A stretch of DNA of 64,000 nt from Fictibacillus terranigra. Its GTDB lineage: Bacteria > Bacillota > Bacilli > Bacillales > Fictibacillaceae. The notes beneath the pieces are model-generated. The model saw only the letters and a program-made list of their open reading frames with translations, searched no databases and had not been told where the DNA came from. The stretch is from assembly GCF_030412265.1 (NCBI RefSeq), contig NZ_JAUHLN010000001.1, positions 124,001 to 188,000 of the forward strand, read 5' to 3'. A program made the position numbers and the translations under genes. Shown here piece after piece: positions 9,208 through 46,567 of the stretch. The number at the start of each line of letters is the position of its first letter. Position 1 is the first letter of the stretch.

Positions 9208-11358
9208 TTGATGAACGGTTTACAGATCTTGAACTGGATTGCCTTTATTCTTGTAACCGCTTACGCCATCTATTTGTTTGCATATGTGGTGAAAACTCGT
9301 TACGAATTCATCAAAATGGGTAAAAAAGTCGAATTTGACCATACCGTGCAGGAACGGATCCAAGCTGTGCTTGTCAATGTATTCGGTCAGAAGAAGCTTT
9401 TGAAAGATAAAAAGAGCGGAATCATCCATGTGTTATTTTTCTATGGGTTCCTCCTTGTCCAATTTGGTGCGATTGATTTTATTTGGAAAGGGCTAGCCCC
9501 TGGGTCGCATCTTCCGCTTGGTCCTCTTTATCCCGGATTTACCTTTTTTCAGGAAACCGTAACTTTCCTCATCCTAGCAGCGGTCGTTTGGGCATTTTAC
9601 CGCAGATATGTCGAAAAGCTAGTACGCCTTAAACGGGGATTTAAAGCAGGTCTCGTGTTACTGTTCATCGGAGGATTAATGATTTCCGTCCTCCTCGGCA
9701 ACGCCATGGAAATCCTTTGGCATGATCTGGAGCTCGAATGGACGGCGCCGATTGCTTCAAGCCTCGCCTATATCCTTGGCGGGCTGCCAGAGGCTGCGGC
9801 CGTCACCCTATTCTTTATCTCCTGGTGGATTCATCTACTGTTCCTTCTCACGTTCCTTGTCTATGTGCCTCAGTCCAAGCATGCTCACTTAATCGCGGGC
9901 CCGCTCAATGTATGGCTTGGGAGGAAGGATAAAGTTGGGAAACTTTCATCCATTAACTTCGAAGATGAAACTCAGGAAGTATTCGGAGTGGGCAAGGTAG
10001 AAGACTTTAACCAGAAGCAGCTTGTCGACTTGTATGCATGTGTAGAATGCGGCCGCTGTACAAATGTGTGTCCGGCAACCGGTACAGGCAAAATGCTCTC
10101 GCCGATGGATATGATAATTAAAGTAAGGGATCATCTCACTGAAAAAGGAGCAGCGGTTACTTCACGCACACCATGGATGCCATCTTTTGCTTTCGCGAAT
10201 ACAAAAGGCAACCAGATTGCTTTTGAAGCCGCAGCAAAAGGACAGGGCGCTAAAGAGATGGCTGCTGCAACAGACGGAAGCTCTGCGTTCAAGTTTGAAT
10301 ATAATATTGAACTGATCGGCGAGGTCATGACCGAAGAAGAGATCTGGGCATGTACTACTTGCCGAAACTGTGAGGATCAATGCCCGGTGATGAATGAGCA
10401 TGTGGATAAAATCATCGACATGCGCCGCTATCTTGTTCTGACGGAAGGAAAGATGGAGGCCGATGCCAAACGTGCCATCCAAAATATTGAAAAGCAAGGA
10501 AACCCATGGGGCATTTCCAAAAAAGAAAGAGAAAACTGGCGTGAGCTTCGGGAAGATGTTTCGATTCCTACCGTAAAAGAGATGGAGAAGGCCGGTGAAG
10601 AGCTTGAATACTTGTTCTGGGTCAGCTCCATGGGGGCCTACGACAACCGAAGCCAGAAAATCGCACTTGCTTTTGCAAAGATCATGAATGAGGCCGGCGT
10701 CAAGTTTGCCATCCTTGGTAACAAGGAAAAGAACTCCGGGGATACGCCTCGACGAATCGGAAACGAGTTCTTGTTCCAGGAAATCTGCAACAGCAACATC
10801 GCGTTATTTGAAAAACATAATGTGAAGAAGATCATCACGATTGATCCGCATGCCTATAATACCTTTAAAAATGAGTATCCGGAGTTTGGTTATGAAGGTG
10901 AGGTTTATCACCATACCGAGCTTTTGGCAGAGTGGATTCAAGAAGGCCGCATCACACCGAAGTTTGAAGTGGATGAAGTCATCACTTATCATGATTCCTG
11001 CTATCTCGGGCGCTATAACGAAGTGTATGAGCCGCCTCGTGAGATATTGAAGGCCATCCCTGGAGTAAAGCTTGTTGAGATGGACCGAAATCGGCAAAAC
11101 GGCATGTGCTGCGGTGCAGGCGGCGGTATGATGTGGATGGAAGAAAAGGCAGGACAGCGTGTTAACGTCGCAAGGACTGAGCAGGCACTGGCGGTTAATC
11201 CGACGATGATCGGAAGCGGCTGCCCATACTGCTTAACCATGCTGAGCGATGGAACAAAAGCCAAAGAAGCAGAAGATCAGGTTCAAACATTGGATGTCGT
11301 TGAAATTCTTGAACGTTCCTTGTTTGGCTCATCAAAAGAAAAAGAATTGGTGCAATAA
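9208..11358 (+). CDS. fadF: FadF-type membrane iron-sulfur oxidoreductase of acyl-CoA oxidation
   Basis: A 716-residue membrane protein thought to pass electrons from acyl-CoA dehydrogenases through ETF to the quinone pool. The first third (about 1-235) holds several hydrophobic helices with a NarI-like character. Two ferredoxin-type motifs follow, CVECGRCTNVCP (about 276) and CTTCRNCEDQCP (about 384), for 4Fe-4S clusters. The C-terminal half has two heterodisulfide-reductase-type CCG modules, with HDSCYLGR, CCGAGGG and GCPYCLTM. ATG at 9208 is used; the ribosome site there is weak (GGGAG). The position after uvsE-clsB equals B. subtilis ywjF/fadF. A FadR-like box lies in its promoter. Confidence 0.9.
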   Translation: MMNGLQILNWIAFILVTAYAIYLFAYVVKTRYEFIKMGKKVEFDHTVQERIQAVLVNVFGQKKLLKDKKSGIIHVLFFYGFLLVQFGAIDFIWKGLAPGSHLPLGPLYPGFTFFQETVTFLILAAVVWAFYRRYVEKLVRLKRGFKAGLVLLFIGGLMISVLLGNAMEILWHDLELEWTAPIASSLAYILGGLPEAAAVTLFFISWWIHLLFLLTFLVYVPQSKHAHLIAGPLNVWLGRKDKVGKLSSINFEDETQEVFGVGKVEDFNQKQLVDLYACVECGRCTNVCPATGTGKMLSPMDMIIKVRDHLTEKGAAVTSRTPWMPSFAFANTKGNQIAFEAAAKGQGAKEMAAATDGSSAFKFEYNIELIGEVMTEEEIWACTTCRNCEDQCPVMNEHVDKIIDMRRYLVLTEGKMEADAKRAIQNIEKQGNPWGISKKERENWRELREDVSIPTVKEMEKAGEELEYLFWVSSMGAYDNRSQKIALAFAKIMNEAGVKFAILGNKEKNSGDTPRRIGNEFLFQEICNSNIALFEKHNVKKIITIDPHAYNTFKNEYPEFGYEGEVYHHTELLAEWIQEGRITPKFEVDEVITYHDSCYLGRYNEVYEPPREILKAIPGVKLVEMDRNRQNGMCCGAGGGMMWMEEKAGQRVNVARTEQALAVNPTMIGSGCPYCLTMLSDGTKAKEAEDQVQTLDVVEILERSLFGSSKEKELVQ

Positions 11359-38196: not shown

Positions 38197-38321
38197 GTGG
38201 GGTTTTTCGGGTTAGTCGGAGGGTCAGGACTTTGTCCTGACCGCTCCTCGCCTGAAGGGATAGCCTTCGAGGTTCCTTTCAGCGGCAGCAGGTGTTTAAA
38301 GCAGAGGGGAGAAGGAAGCAG

Positions 38322-39368
38322 ATGAGATTTGGATTTTGGTTGCCGATTTTTGGCGGATGGTTGAGAAATGTGGAAGATGAGAACATGCCGCCCACGTTTG
38401 ATTATGCAAAAAAGGTCATTGAGTCCGCGGAACAGTGGGGGTTTGATACTACGCTGATCGCAGAGCTGTATTTGAATGATATTAAAGGGCCGGATCAGGA
38501 TTCCCTTGAGGCTTGGTCAACGGCTGCGGGACTCGCCGCTGTAACAGAGAAAATTGAAATCATGACAGCAGTCAGACCGGGATTCCATAACCCTGCCGTC
38601 ACTGCCAAAATGGCAGCGAACATCGATCAGATCAGTGGAGGAAGGTTTACACTTAATGTCGTTTCCGCCTGGTGGGAAGAAGAAGCGAGGCAGTATGGAG
38701 GCATTTTTACCGCTCATGATGAGCGGTATGAGCGTACGCAGGAATTTATTGATGTTCTCAAAGGGCTGTGGACGGAGGAAACGTTTAATTATTCCGGGAA
38801 GTTTTATGAGTTAAGCAACACAAAGCTCTTCCCTAAACCTCTTCAGCGTCCGAATCCTATCCTATATGCAGGCGGTGAAAGTGAGCGAGGAAAACAAGTG
38901 ATCTCTTCCTCCTGTGACGCCTATGTGATGCACGGCGGAACTGTCGAAGAGATCGCGGTTAAGATCGAAGACATGAAGAACCGCCGAGAGCAGACAGGCA
39001 AAGAACCTTTATCTTCGTTTGGAATGGCCGCCTATGTGATCTGCAGAGACACTGAAGAGGAGGCACAGGCTGAACTGCAAAGGATTACAGAGGTCAAGGA
39101 ATCGAGCGCTTATGCAGGATTTAAAGATTTCACGAGCAAATCACAGCTTGAGCAGCAGATACAGCTGCAGGACTATTCTGTTTCAAACCGTGGATTGCGG
39201 CCTAATCTGATCGGTACGCCTGTGCAGATTGCGGAGCGCATTGCTGCGTATGATGAGGCTGGCCTCGGACTTCTTTTATTGCAATTCTCCCCTCAGTTAG
39301 AGGAGATGGAACGTTTTTCAAAACAGGTAATGCCATTAGTGGAGAGCTTTAGGAAAGAACGTGTGTAA
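38322..39368 (+). CDS. LLM-class flavin-dependent monooxygenase, sulfur-related
   Basis: The ATG at 38322 after GAGGGGAGAAGG gives a 348-residue luciferase-like (TIM-barrel) monooxygenase. Family blocks are the N-terminal RFGFWLPIFGGW, EKIEIMTAVRPGFHNPAVTAKMAANIDQISGGRFTLNVVSAWWEEE (about 75-120), HDERYERTQEFIDVLKGLW, and NPILYAGGESERGK. It resembles the SsuD/SfnG group, which use FMNH2 and oxygen to release sulfite from alkanesulfonates or oxidise dimethyl sulfone. The SAM-I riboswitch upstream ties it to sulfur or methionine supply. The exact substrate is not determined, and no flavin reductase or sulfonate transporter is adjacent. Confidence 0.82.
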   Translation: MRFGFWLPIFGGWLRNVEDENMPPTFDYAKKVIESAEQWGFDTTLIAELYLNDIKGPDQDSLEAWSTAAGLAAVTEKIEIMTAVRPGFHNPAVTAKMAANIDQISGGRFTLNVVSAWWEEEARQYGGIFTAHDERYERTQEFIDVLKGLWTEETFNYSGKFYELSNTKLFPKPLQRPNPILYAGGESERGKQVISSSCDAYVMHGGTVEEIAVKIEDMKNRREQTGKEPLSSFGMAAYVICRDTEEEAQAELQRITEVKESSAYAGFKDFTSKSQLEQQIQLQDYSVSNRGLRPNLIGTPVQIAERIAAYDEAGLGLLLLQFSPQLEEMERFSKQVMPLVESFRKERV

Positions 39369-39413
39369 AAGCTTTGCCTGCAGATACTCACCTAGGATAT
39401 AAGGAGGATGACC

Positions 39414-40367
39414 ATGAAAAAAGTTTACATTATACACGAGAATGATGAGTGGACAAATCATTTAATCAAGAGGCTGGACGAACTGCAGGTGCCATATGAG
39501 GCTTGGCATCTTGATCAAGGCACGGTCAATCTGGCAGAAGCACCTCCCGAGGGCATTTTCTATAGCCGTATGAGTGCTTCCTCTCATACAAGAGGACACC
39601 GTTATGCACCGGAACTGGCTGCCAGTGTAATCGCCTGGTTGGAGGCACATGGCCGAAAAGTACTGAACGGCAGCCGGGCGCTTCAGCTGGAGGTAAGCAA
39701 GGTGGCTCAATATCTGGAGCTTGAGGCTCATGGAGTGAGGACACCGAAAACGATTGCAGCTGTCGGCAAGGATCAGATTCTTCAGGCGGCAGAACAGTTC
39801 AGCGGAAAACCGTTTATCACCAAGCATAACCGTGCAGGAAAAGGTCTTGGTGTACAGCTTTTTCATTCGTATCAAGGCTTGAAGGAATATGTTCTCGGAC
39901 CTGACTTTGAAGAGCCGGTAGACGGCGTGACACTGGTTCAGGAATACATTGATTCTCCGGAATCTTATATTACACGCTGTGAATTTGTCGGAGGTAAGTT
40001 TGTATATGCGGTTCGGGTGGATACTTCTGAAGGATTTGAACTCTGTCCGGCCGATGCCTGCCAAATCGGGGATCTTTTTTGTCCCGTGGGAGAGGAAACG
40101 CCGGCGAAGCCAAAATTTCAGATCGTGGAGAATTTCCATGAAGAGGTCATTGAAAACTATGAGAGCGTTCTGGCAGACAACCAAATCCATGTTGCCGGTA
40201 TAGAGTTTATAAAAGATATAGACGGTACTATTTTTACGTATGATATTAATACGAATACCAATTACAACTCGGATGCTGAAGCGGCGGCAGGAAAATATGG
40301 CATGCTTGAGCTTGCAAGGTTTTTGCGGCAGGAGCTTGATTCATTGACAACGGCATCGGTATCATGA
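39414..40367 (+). CDS. ATP-grasp (RimK-type) protein
   Basis: The ATG at 39414, 6 nt after a perfect AAGGAGG, is preferred to one that abuts the site at 39408. The 317-residue product has the ATP-grasp layout: a pre-ATP domain with FYSRMSASSHTRGHRY, the nucleotide lobe KPFITKHNRAGKGLGVQLFHS (about 128-148), VTLVQEYIDSPESYITRCEFVGG, and the metal-binding end VAGIEFIKDIDGTIFTYDINTNTNYNSDAE, where Glu and Asn ligands are intact. RimK relatives ligate amino acids to carboxylates. It lies 45 bp after the flavin monooxygenase under the same SAM riboswitch, so its substrate may be sulfur-linked; that is inference. Confidence 0.82.
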   Translation: MKKVYIIHENDEWTNHLIKRLDELQVPYEAWHLDQGTVNLAEAPPEGIFYSRMSASSHTRGHRYAPELAASVIAWLEAHGRKVLNGSRALQLEVSKVAQYLELEAHGVRTPKTIAAVGKDQILQAAEQFSGKPFITKHNRAGKGLGVQLFHSYQGLKEYVLGPDFEEPVDGVTLVQEYIDSPESYITRCEFVGGKFVYAVRVDTSEGFELCPADACQIGDLFCPVGEETPAKPKFQIVENFHEEVIENYESVLADNQIHVAGIEFIKDIDGTIFTYDINTNTNYNSDAEAAAGKYGMLELARFLRQELDSLTTASVS

Positions 40368-40561: not shown

Positions 40562-40592
40562 GTATTTGTTTACTAGATTCATAGTATGATTT
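40562..40592 (+). promoter_or_regulatory. Possible sigma-F promoter of spoIIR
   Basis: GTATT (40562-40566) and AGTATGATTT (40583-40592) are 16 nt apart, a partial match to the sigma-F consensus GYWTA-N15-16-GGNRANANTT. spoIIR is a sigma-F gene in B. subtilis; the match here is imperfect. Confidence 0.35.
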
Positions 40593-40642
40593 CTCCTTTC
40601 CATGACCACACTGTGGATAGAAAAGGAAAGGGGAGCTTTAAA

Positions 40643-41317
40643 ATGAACCGTTCAAAAAAATCTCTTATGACTATACTATTTCTGTCGCTGATCGCGATGC
40701 TGCTGTTTTTTGAAACCCAAACGAAGGTAGCCAATGCTACGATGAATGCGTCTGTAAAAATCCCGAGTGACGCGATCAGACTTCGGATTCTTGCAAACAG
40801 TGATGCTGATAAGGATCAGACACTAAAGAGAAGAATCAGGGATAAAGTGAACCAACAGATCACAACCTGGGTGGGGGGATTGGACTCTCATGATCAGGCC
40901 GAAAAAGTGATCAGAAAACATTTGCCTGAGGTTGAAAACGTGGTAAAGTCCTATTTGAAGGATGCCGGGCTTGACATTCCCTATAAAGTTCAATTCAACA
41001 ATGACGTTGCCTTCCCGACAAAAATGTACGGAAATTACATCTACCCTGCTGGAAAATATGAAGCGGTACTGATCACACTTGGAAAAGGAGAAGGAGCCAA
41101 CTGGTGGTGCGTATTGTTCCCTCCTCTATGTTTCCTTGATTTTGAAAACGGTGATGCTGTTAAAGCCGACCAGAAGAATGTAAAGGAAGTAGCCTCAGCT
41201 TCAGAACAGGAAGCTCCGGCGATGCAAAAACCCGATGAAGAAACGGTGCATGTTAAGTTCTTTCTGGCAGACTTGTTCACCACCATTGCGGATAAGATAG
41301 GGGGTCTCTTCTCTTAA
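40643..41317 (+). CDS. spoIIR: Stage II sporulation protein R
   Basis: The ATG at 40643 after AAAGGGGAG gives 224 residues; an upstream in-frame start lacks a ribosome site. An N-terminal signal/anchor segment (about 8-30, SLMTILFLSLIAMLLFF) precedes the secreted domain with IRLRILANSDADKDQTLKRRIRDKVN, GNYIYPAGKYEAVLITLGKGEGANWWCVLFPPLCFLD, the hallmark of SpoIIR. Made in the forespore, it crosses to the intermembrane space and triggers SpoIIGA to process pro-sigma-E in the mother cell. In B. subtilis it also lies between prmC and the ywl genes. Confidence 0.95.
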   Translation: MNRSKKSLMTILFLSLIAMLLFFETQTKVANATMNASVKIPSDAIRLRILANSDADKDQTLKRRIRDKVNQQITTWVGGLDSHDQAEKVIRKHLPEVENVVKSYLKDAGLDIPYKVQFNNDVAFPTKMYGNYIYPAGKYEAVLITLGKGEGANWWCVLFPPLCFLDFENGDAVKADQKNVKEVASASEQEAPAMQKPDEETVHVKFFLADLFTTIADKIGGLFS

Positions 41318-41379
41318 TTCCCTGCATAACTTTCATGGTTGTTTCATAGACTTTAAAAAATGCTAGAGGGGTGAACGCC

Positions 41380-41823
41380 ATGACCATTCGATTACGGGCG
41401 GCTATGCCGCATGAGGCTGGAAGCCTCGGTGACCTGGTCAAGCAGGCCGGTCTTGGAACCGATGGAATCAGAGAGGGGATCGAGAACTATCTCGTCGTGG
41501 AAAATGATCAAGGTGAAACGATCGGGACGGTGGGGCTTGAAAGGGTCGAAAACGATGGGTTGCTGCGATCTTTTGTGATGAAGAAAGAATACTCGAACGA
41601 ACATCTATTTCTGCGATTGATTCAAAGAATTTTGCTATACTGTAAGGAAAAAGGAGTAGAAACCTTATACCTGCTTACGAAAGCTGTCCACCTTTTTGAA
41701 CCGCTGTCGTTTCAGCCGGTATCCGCAACAGGAACTCCTTCCCATATCGAGAATACCGCCCATTATAAAAAAACGGCTGAAAAAGATGTTGTGCTGCTGT
41801 ACTGCACGCTGAACGAAAAGTAA
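41380..41823 (+). CDS. ywlB: GNAT-type acetyltransferase (YwlB-like)
   Basis: The ATG at 41380 follows AGAGGGGTGA and gives 147 residues; a GTG nine bases upstream is inside the ribosome site. The N-terminus TIRLRAAMPHEAGSLGDLVKQAG, the strand pair NYLVVENDQGETIGTVGLERV, the cofactor-side helix LLRSFVMKKEY and LIQRILLYCKEKGVETLYLLTKAVHLFEPLSFQPV are the order of a GNAT fold, although the usual pyrophosphate loop is weakened. Its place between spoIIR and sua5 is that of ywlB in B. subtilis. Substrate unknown. Its stop codon is next to the first DnaA box of the cluster that follows. Confidence 0.75.
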   Translation: MTIRLRAAMPHEAGSLGDLVKQAGLGTDGIREGIENYLVVENDQGETIGTVGLERVENDGLLRSFVMKKEYSNEHLFLRLIQRILLYCKEKGVETLYLLTKAVHLFEPLSFQPVSATGTPSHIENTAHYKKTAEKDVVLLYCTLNEK

Positions 41824-42720
41824 TTATCCACAAGTTATGCACATTACTGGAGCATTTGTGTGTAACTTGTGGATGATGTGCGTTGTAAGCTTACGAACAC
41901 ATTTCGGGCGGTTTGAAAGGATTTTTTACATGCTGGAATATAAAACTGAAGTTTGGCCTGTGGATAAAAAAATAGCGGAAGATGAAAATTGTCCACAAAT
42001 TACGCAGGCTTCCCTGTGGATAAAGAAAAATGAAGTGATCGCTTTTCCGACAGAAACCGTGTACGGACTCGGCGGAAACGCGAAGAGTGATGCAGCCATC
42101 GAGAAGATTTTTCTGGCGAAGGGACGGCCGAGCGATAATCCGCTGATCGTCCACGTGGCAAGCCGTGAGCAGCTTATCGGAATGGTTTCCTCCATTCCTG
42201 AACGGGCAAAAAAACTGATGGATGCGTTCTGGCCAGGTCCGTTGACATTGGTTCTTCCCAAGGGAGAGGATGTGTCCGAACGGGTGACCGCAGGGTTATC
42301 CACAGTGGCTGTTCGGATGCCTGATCATCCCGTTGCTCTAAAACTCATTAAAGAATGCGGTCTCCCCTTGGCGGCTCCCAGCGCGAATGTCTCGGGAAGG
42401 CCTTCTCCTACAACGGCCCAGCACGTCCATGAGGATTTAAATGGGAGAATACCCGGCATCCTGGATGGCGGGGTCACAGGGGTAGGAGTGGAATCCACAG
42501 TAGTCGACTGCACAGCTGAAACACTGGTCATCCTTCGGCCAGGAGGTGTCACAAAAGAGCAGCTGGAGGTGGTTGCAGGTGAGACCATGATGGATCCAGG
42601 CCTCCTCAATGAGCAGGCCGCCCCAAAATCTCCGGGGATGAAATACACCCATTATGCTCCGAATGCTCCTCTTTTCCTTGTGGATGGATCCCCTTCTTTC
42701 CTGCAGGAGCTTGTGGATAA
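41824..42720. promoter_or_regulatory. DnaA-box cluster across the ywlB-sua5 junction and sua5
   Basis: Five exact TTATCCACA boxes or their complements lie at 41824-41832, 41959-41967, 42015-42023, 42296-42304 and 42712-42720. Close variants are TTATGCACA at 41835, TGTGGATGA at 41868 and TTGTCCACA at 41989. About 0.5 exact 9-mer would be expected by chance in the whole 64 kb. In B. subtilis a non-origin DnaA-box cluster is known at ywlC, the sua5 orthologue, so position and density both agree. Confidence 0.85.
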
Positions 42721-42979
42721 GCAAAAAGGAGCCGGTTTAAAAACCGGGGTGCTCACCACGGAAGAAAATGCTCCCTTTTACAAAGCGGATGCGGTCATTC
42801 CTTGCGGATCACGAGGAAAGCTGGAAAGTGTAGCACATCACCTATATGACGCATTGAGGGCATTTAATGAGAGTGGTGTCGATATCATTTACGGAGAAGT
42901 TTTTCCGAAATCGGGTGTAGGCGCAGCGATTATGAACAGGCTCGAGAAATCTGCCGGCGGGCAGATCATCAAAGAATAA
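41930..42979 (+). CDS. sua5: Threonylcarbamoyl-AMP synthase (Sua5/YwlC)
   Basis: The ATG at 41930 has GAAAGG 9 nt upstream and gives 349 residues; the open frame upstream lacks a ribosome site. The N-terminal YrdC-like domain contains VIAFPTETVYGLGGNAKSDAAIEKIFLAKGRPSDNPLIVHV (about 38-78) and LPLAAPSANVSGRPSPTTAQHV, binding threonine, bicarbonate and ATP; the C-terminal Sua5 domain (about 240-349) begins after SPGMKYTHYAP. It makes threonylcarbamoyl-AMP for t6A37 of ANN-decoding tRNAs. Its first 30 codons and later parts contain several exact DnaA boxes, which places a coding constraint on the N-terminal extension. Confidence 0.94.
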   Translation: MLEYKTEVWPVDKKIAEDENCPQITQASLWIKKNEVIAFPTETVYGLGGNAKSDAAIEKIFLAKGRPSDNPLIVHVASREQLIGMVSSIPERAKKLMDAFWPGPLTLVLPKGEDVSERVTAGLSTVAVRMPDHPVALKLIKECGLPLAAPSANVSGRPSPTTAQHVHEDLNGRIPGILDGGVTGVGVESTVVDCTAETLVILRPGGVTKEQLEVVAGETMMDPGLLNEQAAPKSPGMKYTHYAPNAPLFLVDGSPSFLQELVDKQKGAGLKTGVLTTEENAPFYKADAVIPCGSRGKLESVAHHLYDALRAFNESGVDIIYGEVFPKSGVGAAIMNRLEKSAGGQIIKE

Positions 42980-43084: not shown

Positions 43085-43591
43085 ATGGAAAGCAGAATGA
43101 TATACGCTTCAGAAAAAGAGATGGTGCTCGAGGATGCTTTTGGAAGAATTTCTCTTAAAATGAAAAACCCTGAATCAGTGGTGATGCTCGCCAGAAAAGA
43201 GGATAGTTTGATCTTGATCAGCCAGTATCGGCAGCCGGTGGACAGCAAAGTGATCCAGCTGCCAGGGGGAAGAGTAAATGAAGGAGAGCAGCTGGATCAT
43301 GCGGCCCGGAGAGAGCTTCGCGAAGAAACAGGTTATGAATGCGGCCGAATTCATTATCTTGGAAAATTGATTCTTGCCTCATGGAAAACGAATGAAGAAG
43401 CACATGTTTTTTATACGGAAGAGCTGATCGATCATCATCAACAGAGCCTTGAAACCCATGAGAAAATTACGATTCTTGAAATGAGCCTGGAAGTGTGTCT
43501 GCGGCAGATCGAAGAAAACACAATAAATGATACAGAACTGTGCTATGCTGTTCTGCAAGCGATTCTGAAGGGCTTCATCCGACCAGAATAA
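43085..43591 (+). CDS. NUDIX hydrolase (ADP-ribose pyrophosphatase-like)
   Basis: A 168-residue NUDIX protein. The NUDIX box is complete in GGRVNEGEQLDHAARRELREETGYE (about 60-84), giving the metal-binding Glu residues, and the preceding ILISQYRQPVDSKVIQLPGG is the form of the ADP-ribose pyrophosphatase subgroup. Likely substrate is ADP-ribose or another nucleoside diphosphate derivative. It lies between sua5 and a convergent kinase gene, 27 bp from the latter's end, with no clear terminator between them. The start follows a GGGTGTTTAG stretch; ribosome site is modest. Confidence 0.85.
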   Translation: MESRMIYASEKEMVLEDAFGRISLKMKNPESVVMLARKEDSLILISQYRQPVDSKVIQLPGGRVNEGEQLDHAARRELREETGYECGRIHYLGKLILASWKTNEEAHVFYTEELIDHHQQSLETHEKITILEMSLEVCLRQIEENTINDTELCYAVLQAILKGFIRPE

Positions 43592-43618: not shown

Positions 43619-45832
43619 CTATCCCCCTAAACGCGGGAGCGTAACAGGAAGCGCTACCTTGAAAGTGCTCCCTTTCCCTGGTTCGCTTTTTACCTGGATC
43701 CTTCCGCCATGGTCCTCAATGATCTTGTAGCAGACCATGAGACCGAGCCCCGTCCCTTTTTCCTTTGTGGTAAAGAACGGTTCACCGAGTGAAGGGAGCT
43801 TTTCAAAAGGAATGCCGCAGCCTTCATCCTTGAACGACACCACTAATTCATCGTCTTCTGTTTTGATGGAGATATACACGTTTCCGCCATCCGGCATCGC
43901 TTCGATCGCATTTTTAAGCAAGTTGATAAATACCTGTTTCAGCTGACTGTCTACACATGAGACCAAAGGCAAGTCCTCGTGTGCCTTAAAATAAATCTGC
44001 ACGTTCATCAAGATAGCCTGTGTTTCAATCAGGGAGATGACATGGTGCAGCAGCCCTGTGATGCTGGTGGGCACCATATCGATCACCTGCGGCTTGGCCA
44101 GTACCATAAATTCACTGACGATGGAGTTGATCCTGTCGATCTCTGAAAGCATGATATCATAGTACTCATAATGGTCCTTTGCTTTCGATTGCAGCAGCTG
44201 AAGGAATCCCTTGATGGAGGTTAAAGGATTTCGAACCTCATGGGCGACACCGGCAGCCAGCTGGCCAAGAACGGAAAGTTTATCAGATTTTCTGAGCATT
44301 TCTTCTGTTTTTTTCCGTTCGGTCAGATCTCTGGAGACGAAGACAATGCTTTCCACCTGATTCTTTTCATTGATGACAGGTGTTGCATTTGTTTCCAATA
44401 CAACGTAAGAGCCGTTTTTATGTTTCCATCGTGCTTCATATTTGACAGGCTTTCTAGCTTCAATCATTTGCCGCAGGATGTGAGTCACTCGTTTTTTGTC
44501 CTCATCATGAAGAAAATCCACTGCATTTTTTCCGATATAATCTGCAGGCTCCGTACCCAGGATCAGCTTGTTGGAAGGGGAAGCATAGGTAATTTTTCCT
44601 TGTATGTCGGACGTTGCGATGAGATCCATAGTATTTTCAGCGATGATTCTGTATTTTTCCTCGCTCTCCCGCAATGCTTTTTCTTGGCGTTTTTTTTCGG
44701 TGATGTCACGTGAAATACCCGAGTAGGCGTATACTCGGCCGTTTTGATCGAATATGGGAAACAGTGTCACACTGGAATTCAGCAAGGTTCCGTCTTTGCG
44801 CTGGCAGATCATCTCGTGGCCTTTAATGGGGATTCCCTTTTTCACCGTCTGGATCATCTGTACGGATTCTTGTAAATATTGATCAAGGACAATAGGGAAA
44901 ATCGGATTTCTGCAATCTTTTAAATCTTCTTCTGTCCACCCGAATGTGTTTTCGAAAGCCGGGTTCAGCTTGATCGTTTGTTTGTCAAAATCATAGATGG
45001 AAATCATGTCTGCAGAATGTGTAAAAAGCGACTCCAGTGTTTCTTTTGTTTCCTTCAGCTCGGCTTCCTGCTTCTTCTTTTCTGTGATGTCTTTTCCGAT
45101 GCAATACAGGCCGAGGACGTCCCCGCTGACGATAATGGGGGTAATGGTCACATTGACATATCGGATTTCCCCGTCTTTTCTTCTCAGCATAATATCGTGG
45201 GTTTTTGGAGTGCCCCTCAGCGCTTCCTCAAAGCCGCGCACTGAAGTTTCCAGGTGTTCTTTCATGAGCAAAGGATGAAAGGTCATGCTGAGCAGTTCTT
45301 TGCCCGAGTAACCGGTCAGCTGTTCTGCTGCGACATTAACGGTCGTGAACTTACCTTGAAAATCCAGGGAAAATAGAGCATCGATGTTATGCTCGATCAG
45401 TGAACGGTACCTTTGTTCACTTTCTTCCAACTGCCTTTCCACCATGACACGGTGAATGAGATCGATGCTTAAGCCCCTGACTTCCACCACCTTTCCGTTT
45501 TCGAAGACTGGAATTAATGATACAAGAAAGGGCACCTGGTTGATTTGGGCTTCATATGTAATATGCTCACCTTTCCAAGCCCGTTCGTAGCAATCAATTT
45601 TAAATTCAGCGAGCTCTTTCGAAAAAATTTCTTCAGGAGTCTTCCCCACCACCCATTCTTCCTTAAAGCCCAGGGAATCAGAGAGTTCGCCGCCGCATCC
45701 GGTCATAATGAACTGTTGGCCGGACTTAACAAACCTGAACGTCATGCTCATTTGTTTAGTAACTTCCATGCGGTGTGCTTTAAAGTTTGATTCAGCAACT
45801 GCCGGATGAATCGATCTATCGTCATCTGCCAT
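43619..45832 (-). CDS. Multi-PAS sensor histidine kinase, sporulation-kinase type
   Basis: A 737-residue kinase with four PAS regions at about 35-130, 138-252, 260-380 and 392-505, the later ones with the PAC end motif (GxxxDITEKK). HisKA has the phospho-acceptor His531 in AHEVRNPLTSIKGFLQLLQ, and the HATPase domain has NLLKNAIEAMPDGG, DEGCGIP and GTGLGL. No membrane segment is seen, so the sensed signal is probably intracellular. The HEVRNPLTSIKGF motif is the form of KinA-type kinases. ATG at 45832 follows GGAGGGG. It has no partner regulator nearby and is very similar in its catalytic half to the kinase at 1639. Confidence 0.85.
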   Translation of the reverse strand: MADDDRSIHPAVAESNFKAHRMEVTKQMSMTFRFVKSGQQFIMTGCGGELSDSLGFKEEWVVGKTPEEIFSKELAEFKIDCYERAWKGEHITYEAQINQVPFLVSLIPVFENGKVVEVRGLSIDLIHRVMVERQLEESEQRYRSLIEHNIDALFSLDFQGKFTTVNVAAEQLTGYSGKELLSMTFHPLLMKEHLETSVRGFEEALRGTPKTHDIMLRRKDGEIRYVNVTITPIIVSGDVLGLYCIGKDITEKKKQEAELKETKETLESLFTHSADMISIYDFDKQTIKLNPAFENTFGWTEEDLKDCRNPIFPIVLDQYLQESVQMIQTVKKGIPIKGHEMICQRKDGTLLNSSVTLFPIFDQNGRVYAYSGISRDITEKKRQEKALRESEEKYRIIAENTMDLIATSDIQGKITYASPSNKLILGTEPADYIGKNAVDFLHDEDKKRVTHILRQMIEARKPVKYEARWKHKNGSYVVLETNATPVINEKNQVESIVFVSRDLTERKKTEEMLRKSDKLSVLGQLAAGVAHEVRNPLTSIKGFLQLLQSKAKDHYEYYDIMLSEIDRINSIVSEFMVLAKPQVIDMVPTSITGLLHHVISLIETQAILMNVQIYFKAHEDLPLVSCVDSQLKQVFINLLKNAIEAMPDGGNVYISIKTEDDELVVSFKDEGCGIPFEKLPSLGEPFFTTKEKGTGLGLMVCYKIIEDHGGRIQVKSEPGKGSTFKVALPVTLPRLGG

Positions 45833-46009: not shown

Positions 46010-46567
46010 ATGGACGTCGTAACAATCGGTGAGTGGCTGACGCTTTGGCTCATGTCCTTTGCGCTGGGAATGGATGCCTTTTCCATCGGCCTTGGCATGG
46101 GCATGCTGCAGCTTAGACTGAGGCAGATCGTAAAAATCGGTGTTGTCATCGGACTGTTTCACATTGGAATGCCTCTGGCAGGATTGATGCTCGGCAAGCA
46201 GATTTCCTCTCATTTTGGCGGGATTGCAGCGATCATAGGCGGCTGTTTGCTGCTTCTTCTTGGCTTGCAGATGATCCGCTCCTCCTTCAAGCCTGAGAAT
46301 GAGCCGTTCGTAAATCCTGTCGGGTTCGGTCTCCTGCTGTTTGCTGTCAGTGCGAGTCTTGACAGTTTCTCTGTCGGTTTAAGCCTGGGGATTTATGGAG
46401 CCCGCACGTTTCTCACCATCTTCATGTTTGGAATCATGAGCATGATGCTGACATGGGGGGGGCTGATGATGGGTAGAAAAGTTCAAAATTGGCTCGGCTC
46501 CTACAGTGAGGCTCTGGGTGGATTAATTTTGCTTGCGTTCGGAATCAAACTGCTGTTTCCTTTATAA
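46010..46567 (+). CDS. mntP: Manganese efflux pump MntP
   Basis: A 185-residue membrane protein with six hydrophobic helices, arranged as two repeats of three. The conserved acidic site of the first repeat is in [16 protein letters not shown] (Asp about 24) and of the second in [14 protein letters not shown] (Asp about 121), the DAFS/DSFS motifs typical of MntP. It exports Mn(II) and protects against manganese excess. Ribosome site GAGGGGGAAAC. It is the B. subtilis ywlD position. No yybP-ykoY manganese riboswitch structure was recognised upstream. Confidence 0.93.

Follow-up and report, generated by a model that had tools for sequence, protein, structure and literature searches.

The junction of ywlB and tsaC (the latter also known as ywlC or sua5) raises the question of why copies of the DnaA box TTATCCACA are gathered there, outside the replication origin, and what keeps them in a stretch that is largely protein-coding. 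The sequence analysed, hereafter the window, is the whole stretch of 64,000 nucleotides. A first-pass annotation of the window had reported five exact and three one-mismatch boxes within about 900 bp, most of them overlapping the coding sequence of tsaC. Our recount agrees on both points: the boxes stand between 41824 and 42720 at the positions claimed (Table 1), and five of the eight, including four of the five exact ones, lie in tsaC, with the other three in the 106-bp gap between the two genes. The sixth exact box of the window stands alone at 10401-10409 (minus strand).

The locus and its neighbourhood

The start codon of tsaC was set by eye, using the RBS-like sequence GAAAGGA and the N-termini of homologues, within a frame that is open from 41837. 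The name ywlB was given to the upstream gene because of its position and of 22% identity to the gene that precedes tsaC in genome G162. Among the 80 tsaC loci that we compared, from Bacillaceae and near relatives, the closest named TsaC is that of Fictibacillus fluitans (79%), followed by other Fictibacillus (71%).

Table 1 DnaA boxes and genes around the ywlB-tsaC junction. Positions are those of the window. Offsets in tsaC are counted from its start codon.
Feature	Position	Strand	Remarks
spoIIR	40586-41317		TIGR02837 above cut-off
ywlB-like GNAT acetyltransferase	41371..41823	+	PF00583, just over cut-off
Exact DnaA box	41824..41832	+	Intergenic, directly 3' of ywlB stop codon
One-mismatch DnaA box TTATGCACA (fits TTATNCACA)	41835..41843	+	Intergenic, 11 bp after first box
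One-mismatch DnaA box TCATCCACA	41868..41876	-	ywlB-tsaC intergenic gap
tsaC (ywlC/sua5), L-threonylcarbamoyladenylate synthase	41930..42979	+	TIGR00057 214 bits (cut-off 123); PF01300, PF03481
Exact DnaA box	41959..41967	-	In tsaC, offset +29
One-mismatch DnaA box TTGTCCACA	41989..41997	+	In tsaC, offset +59
Exact DnaA box	42015..42023	-	In tsaC, offset +85
Exact DnaA box	42296..42304	+	In tsaC, offset +366, codons L-S-T
Exact DnaA box	42712..42720	-	In tsaC, offset +782
Nudix-type gene	43085-43591		Match below NCBIfam equivalog cut-off
PAS histidine kinase	43619-45832	-	Match below NCBIfam equivalog cut-off
mntP-like gene	46010-46567		Match below NCBIfam equivalog cut-off

The annotation had also taken the neighbouring genes to be rearranged, and had seen in this a sign of selection for location. 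This part finds little support. Matches to spoIIR, ywlB and mntP were found near tsaC in 77, 54 and 79 of the 80 loci, respectively, some of these loci being cut short, and the neighbourhood is conserved except for extra genes that separate tsaC from mntP or precede spoIIR. Of the two that separate tsaC from mntP here, the PAS histidine kinase was matched in four of the 80 loci, all Fictibacillus, and the Nudix gene at none of them. Upstream of spoIIR (38292-40367) lie genes of the luciferase-like monooxygenase and ATP-grasp types, named by eye, with a nearby match only at the F. fluitans locus L001 among the 80. The distance from tsaC to dnaA is about 2-18% of genome length in the 15 single-contig genomes of 22 searched for dnaA (circularity assumed, sizes partly rounded); these include G001 and G021, where tsaC is near the origin although both have no TTATNCACA box at the gene. 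Since gene order around tsaC is conserved in any case, location is no independent evidence of selection on the cluster.

Density and conservation of the boxes

The six exact boxes of the window compare with a mean of 0.41 and a maximum of 4 in 100 dinucleotide shuffles. The draft genome (4,967,627 bases in 16 contigs) holds 64 exact boxes, and 33 copies of the reversed control word. Ranking 1-kb stretches genome-wide by exact boxes (places within one mismatch number 1470), which the annotation had proposed as a check, puts ywlB-tsaC first with five, the genome maximum, followed by the dnaA promoter with four and tsaD-ydiF with three; 64 boxes placed randomly never gave more than three in 1 kb in 2000 draws. 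If TTATNCACA boxes per kb are counted, for which just five genome regions were compared, tsaD-ydiF (8) exceeds ywlB-tsaC (6). The shuffles and the random placement lead us to reject chance or composition as the origin of the cluster.

The same concentration is seen in relatives. Across the 80 loci, the region from -350 to +1068 of tsaC holds 267 exact boxes in 113 kb, and the remaining 733 kb hold 32. At least two TTATNCACA boxes occur in this region in 76 of the loci, and one in the other four.

Could the coding boxes simply follow from the protein that is encoded and the codons in use? Boxes are indeed compatible with the peptides W-x-V-D-K/N and Y-P-Q, and an exact one is possible at +29 in 51 and at +59 in 47 of the 77 tsaC genes used for this question (the window plus 76 of the 80 loci, with L046, L050, L051 and L053 left out). 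However, these genes carry 140 exact coding boxes (1.73 per kb, counted as related sequences and not as events), compared to a mean of 23 and a maximum of 35 in 200 synonymous shuffles that keep the protein and the codon counts. The tsaC gene of the window alone has four, where 2000 such shuffles give 0.25 on average and at most 3. The 593 flanking frames hold 30 exact boxes (0.063 per kb, about 27-fold fewer than tsaC; their own shuffles give 7), a control count that is if anything too high because the tsaC frames of the four omitted loci remain among them. Ordinary genes thus do not show the equal density that the annotation had named as grounds for giving up its claim. In six of the 77 tsaC genes the coding sequence contains no exact box.

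In a codon alignment of the 77 genes, with expectations calculated from protein and codon use, the box is exact at +29 in 38 genes (67 within one mismatch; 6.4 exact expected), at +41 in 26 (47; 6.4), at +59 in 33 (66; 5.3), at +85 in 8 (8; 0.7), at +366 in 10 (15; 0.4) and at +782 in 4 (12; 0.4). Of the three best-kept coding sites, the tsaC of the window has +29 exact and +59 with one mismatch, and it has no box at +41.

After thinning the 77 genes to 64 at less than 85% nucleotide identity, excess synonymous identity averaged +0.29 over the 12 codons that make up the +29, +41 and +59 boxes and -0.01 over the 328 others, and none of 20000 random codon sets reached +0.29. The nine codons with the highest excess, out of 340, all fall in codons 10-25; seven are part of these three boxes, and the other two, codons 19 and 25, lie directly beside them. 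We counted 115 copies of the box word in the thinned genes, whereas 1680 permuted words average 0.66, the next-highest count (44) being that of a shifted word overlapping the box. Moreover, the box-less locus L107 still encodes W-x-V-D and P-Q, using the codons GTA GAC and CCT CAA, which form no box. We therefore reject the protein and codon artefact on the basis of the shuffles, the per-site expectations and the codon-level excess, and consider it extremely improbable; the annotation's view that the boxes are kept beyond protein and codon needs is borne out.

One further association was set aside as evidence. Residue 13 is K or N in 103 of 108 sequences with a +29 box at one mismatch or fewer and in 3 of 30 without (39 of 177 rows were gapped, and L076 and L096, with internal stops, and the duplicates L081 and L161 were left out), which is largely true by construction because an exact box forces K or N. 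The tsaC match of L096 (genome G051) has one internal TAA.

Within the genus, six loci (L151-L156), whose genomes may overlap the named Fictibacillus loci, all have exact boxes at +29 and +85; three have the +366 box and four a box at +782 or +785. At +59 none is exact and three are within one mismatch. The box next to the ywlB stop codon is exact in F. fluitans (L001) and in five of the six, TTATGCACA is kept in all six, and the site at 41868..41876 is exact in three and has one mismatch in the other three. The +59 site, widely kept elsewhere, has decayed in this genus, and +85 has been fixed in it.

Spread over the class and companion clusters

For the wider class we sampled 66 loci, 30 automatically and 36 picked for family spread, which cover 41 of 45 families (all except f34, f40, f44 and f45). 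In this sample, boxes are 17 times as dense at tsaC as elsewhere in the loci. Of the 41 families, 26 have a member with two or more TTATNCACA boxes at tsaC; one family has a single box, 14 have none, and family f8 is mixed for the cluster. Absence of box conservation in relatives, which the annotation had offered as a possible refutation, is thus not what was found. High G+C may explain some of the box-less families, though not f7, f18 and f26 (G+C 0.42-0.48). Outside the class, 27 loci of the same phylum, which were best matches and no random draw, showed no TTATNCACA box at tsaC, so that the cluster count is 0 of 27; seven of them have one to three scattered one-mismatch words there.

On a protein tree of 92 rows, 46 with the cluster and 46 without, the label changes 12 times, and 32 of 88 inner branches are open. 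We take this as only a hint that the cluster may have been gained once, early, and lost repeatedly. One case of loss is G129, a genome of the same order in which no box at one mismatch or fewer occurs in 4 kb around tsaC (L107/L187). Altered DnaA specificity is rejected as the cause, since exact TTATCCACA arrays are still present at its oriC and at tsaD-ydiF: G129 has kept the box word and lost the cluster at tsaC. This loss indicates that the protein does not dictate the codons, and also that the tsaC cluster is dispensable.

The genome of the window encodes a DnaA with the helix-turn-helix domain that reads the box (TIGR00362, PF08299), and it has further box groups at the dnaA promoter, between dnaA and dnaN, at jag-trmE (jag named by eye), upstream of rlmH and at tsaD-ydiF. 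We take rlmH and tsaD to be the genes called yydA and gcp in Bacillus subtilis. The five groups match, in that order, regions 1, 2, 5, 8 and 4 of B. subtilis as given in excerpts of PMC4447404. The counterpart of gcp-ydiF is the dense group between the convergent genes tsaD and ydiF (ABC-F), with three exact and eight TTATNCACA boxes within 1 kb (L149:5040-5394; G000:C14:7039-7393). Smaller groups correspond to jag-trmE (mnmE), with one exact and two one-mismatch boxes (L147:13780-13820), and to yydA, with two exact boxes upstream of rlmH (L148:4495-4731). These three differ from the ywlB-tsaC cluster in the genes that they accompany. Four of the clusters border RNA-modification genes, namely tsaC, tsaD, trmE (mnmE) and rlmH.

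Two other arrangements were noted. Close to genes for a DJ-1/PfpI and a DUF2621 protein, a stretch of 35 bp holds two exact boxes and TTATTCACA (L150:5668-5702; G000:C9:399667-399701); the region has no equivalent in the top-20 table of PMC4447404. Near the dnaA promoter there is an inverted pair of exact boxes at a 12-bp offset (L147:10864-10884). Such a pair also stands upstream of tsaC in many relatives, and is absent from the window.

Function of the cluster and its meaning

In B. subtilis, few regions outside the origin bind DnaA as strongly as the ywlB-ywlC junction. IDAP-seq region 6, upstream of ywlC and downstream of ywlB, has nine predicted sites in 300 bp, and the ywlC region binds in vitro with an apparent Kd of 0.25 uM for ATP-DnaA and 0.45 uM for ADP-DnaA (PMC4447404, Smith and Grossman 2015, in excerpt). 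What the annotation had stated of the B. subtilis orthologue, that ywlC is a known non-origin cluster, agrees with this source. The cluster described here likewise sits between ywlB and tsaC, uses the same box word, has several boxes in about 300 bp (six at one mismatch or fewer from 41824 to 42023, of which three are exact and one is TTATGCACA) and belongs to a genome with other clusters beside the same genes. It differs in having four exact boxes inside tsaC (+29, +85, +366, +782).

We consider it highly probable that the cluster is the orthologue of the B. subtilis ywlB-ywlC cluster and would act as a DnaA sink that also represses tsaC. The boxes, their density, their DNA-level conservation in coding sequence, their spread over the class and the companion clusters, next to the genes that they accompany in B. 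subtilis, are established here. Binding, repression of tsaC and an effect on initiation would carry over from B. subtilis, and a role in DnaA titration and initiation timing is inferred for this genome in the same way. DnaA would bind the array cooperatively; the bound molecules would be kept from oriC, with the array as one sink among several, and premature re-initiation would be damped. With DnaA lying over the tsaC promoter region and the first 100 nt of the gene, tsaC expression would go down when DnaA is plentiful. No sigma-70-like promoter was found on the plus strand of the ywlB-tsaC gap in the window; in several relatives, as judged by eye, a -35/-10-like sequence upstream of tsaC is immediately preceded by two boxes in inverted orientation. 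Excerpts of reviews (PMC5295017, PMC13220808) report that deleting six clusters in B. subtilis leads to early initiation, strongly only with all six gone. Against this explanation speak the negative promoter search in the gap, the incomplete set of the three best-kept coding sites in the window, the 14 box-less families and the one with a single box, the loss in G129 and the six genes with no exact coding box.

A less likely but still serious candidate is that the boxes serve as an operator only, by which DnaA would repress tsaC while titration would be a side effect with no selective weight. Excerpts of PMC4447404, PMC8203912 and PMC12112137 list B. subtilis ywlC as repressed or directly regulated by DnaA, and PywlC-lacZ drops in a mutant whose DnaA level is roughly doubled (PMC12112137, in excerpt). 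The best conserved boxes extend from about -125 to +67 of tsaC, and the placing of the inverted pair ahead of promoter-like sequence in some relatives, again by eye, fits an operator as well. However, the +366 and +782 boxes exceed chance although they lie deep in the gene, a less usual place for an operator, and the comparable tsaD-ydiF cluster is downstream of both its genes.

It is rather improbable that the array goes beyond holding DnaA and would alter its nucleotide state, as the remodelling loci datA and DARS of E. coli do. The likeness to these, drawn here from the boxes, is that both would be non-origin box groups tuning initiation, and oriented arrays with inverted pairs at the 12-bp offset recur in many relatives; datA itself acts via IHF and DnaA-ATP hydrolysis (PMC5295017, in excerpt). 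A second or former replication origin, which a number of exact boxes equal to or above that of the dnaA promoter part of oriC might suggest, is considered very unlikely: G+C never falls below 0.35 between 41200 and 43100 (on a 100-bp scale, coarser than short unwinding elements and DnaA-trios), and dnaA and dnaN with their box arrays lie on the same contig, with 155 kb between the ywlB-tsaC and the dnaA promoter boxes.

Both this type of feature and its place at the homologous junction are already known. Conservation at ywlC may already be in print and we claim no priority for it; neither the codon-level conservation of the boxes in tsaC nor the spread over the class is described in the literature matches listed, as excerpted, older work on cluster deletion and on the transcriptional response to DnaA being outside this comparison.

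A bolder joint reading, which we regard as doubtful, is that the array at the start of tsaC, within its first 25 codons, arose early in the history of the class and has since constrained the codons used, and perhaps also the amino acids, in many lineages. DnaA bound in the open reading frame would then be a transcription brake tying t6A tRNA modification to replication status. Because tsaD (the second t6A gene), trmE (mnmE) and rlmH also border clusters, the clusters may link genes for RNA modification to the replication cycle, beyond soaking up DnaA.

For the interpretation of box clusters outside the origin, the cluster described here, most probably the orthologue of the B. subtilis one, matters in several ways. 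PMC5295017, in excerpt, treats the B. subtilis non-origin clusters as weak because a strong effect required removal of all six. Conservation at codon level over much of the class is independent evidence of usefulness in many lineages. Three B. subtilis-like genomes used as stand-ins for B. subtilis, L069 (B. haynesii), L090 and L091, have no box within one mismatch at +29 or +59; their coding boxes are at +48 in all three, at +662 in L090 and L091 and at +345 in L069. B. subtilis may therefore represent the coding part poorly. Lineages that have lost the cluster, such as G129, are natural knock-outs, and the codon sites permit synonymous removal of boxes with TsaC unaltered, which makes for a clean experiment.
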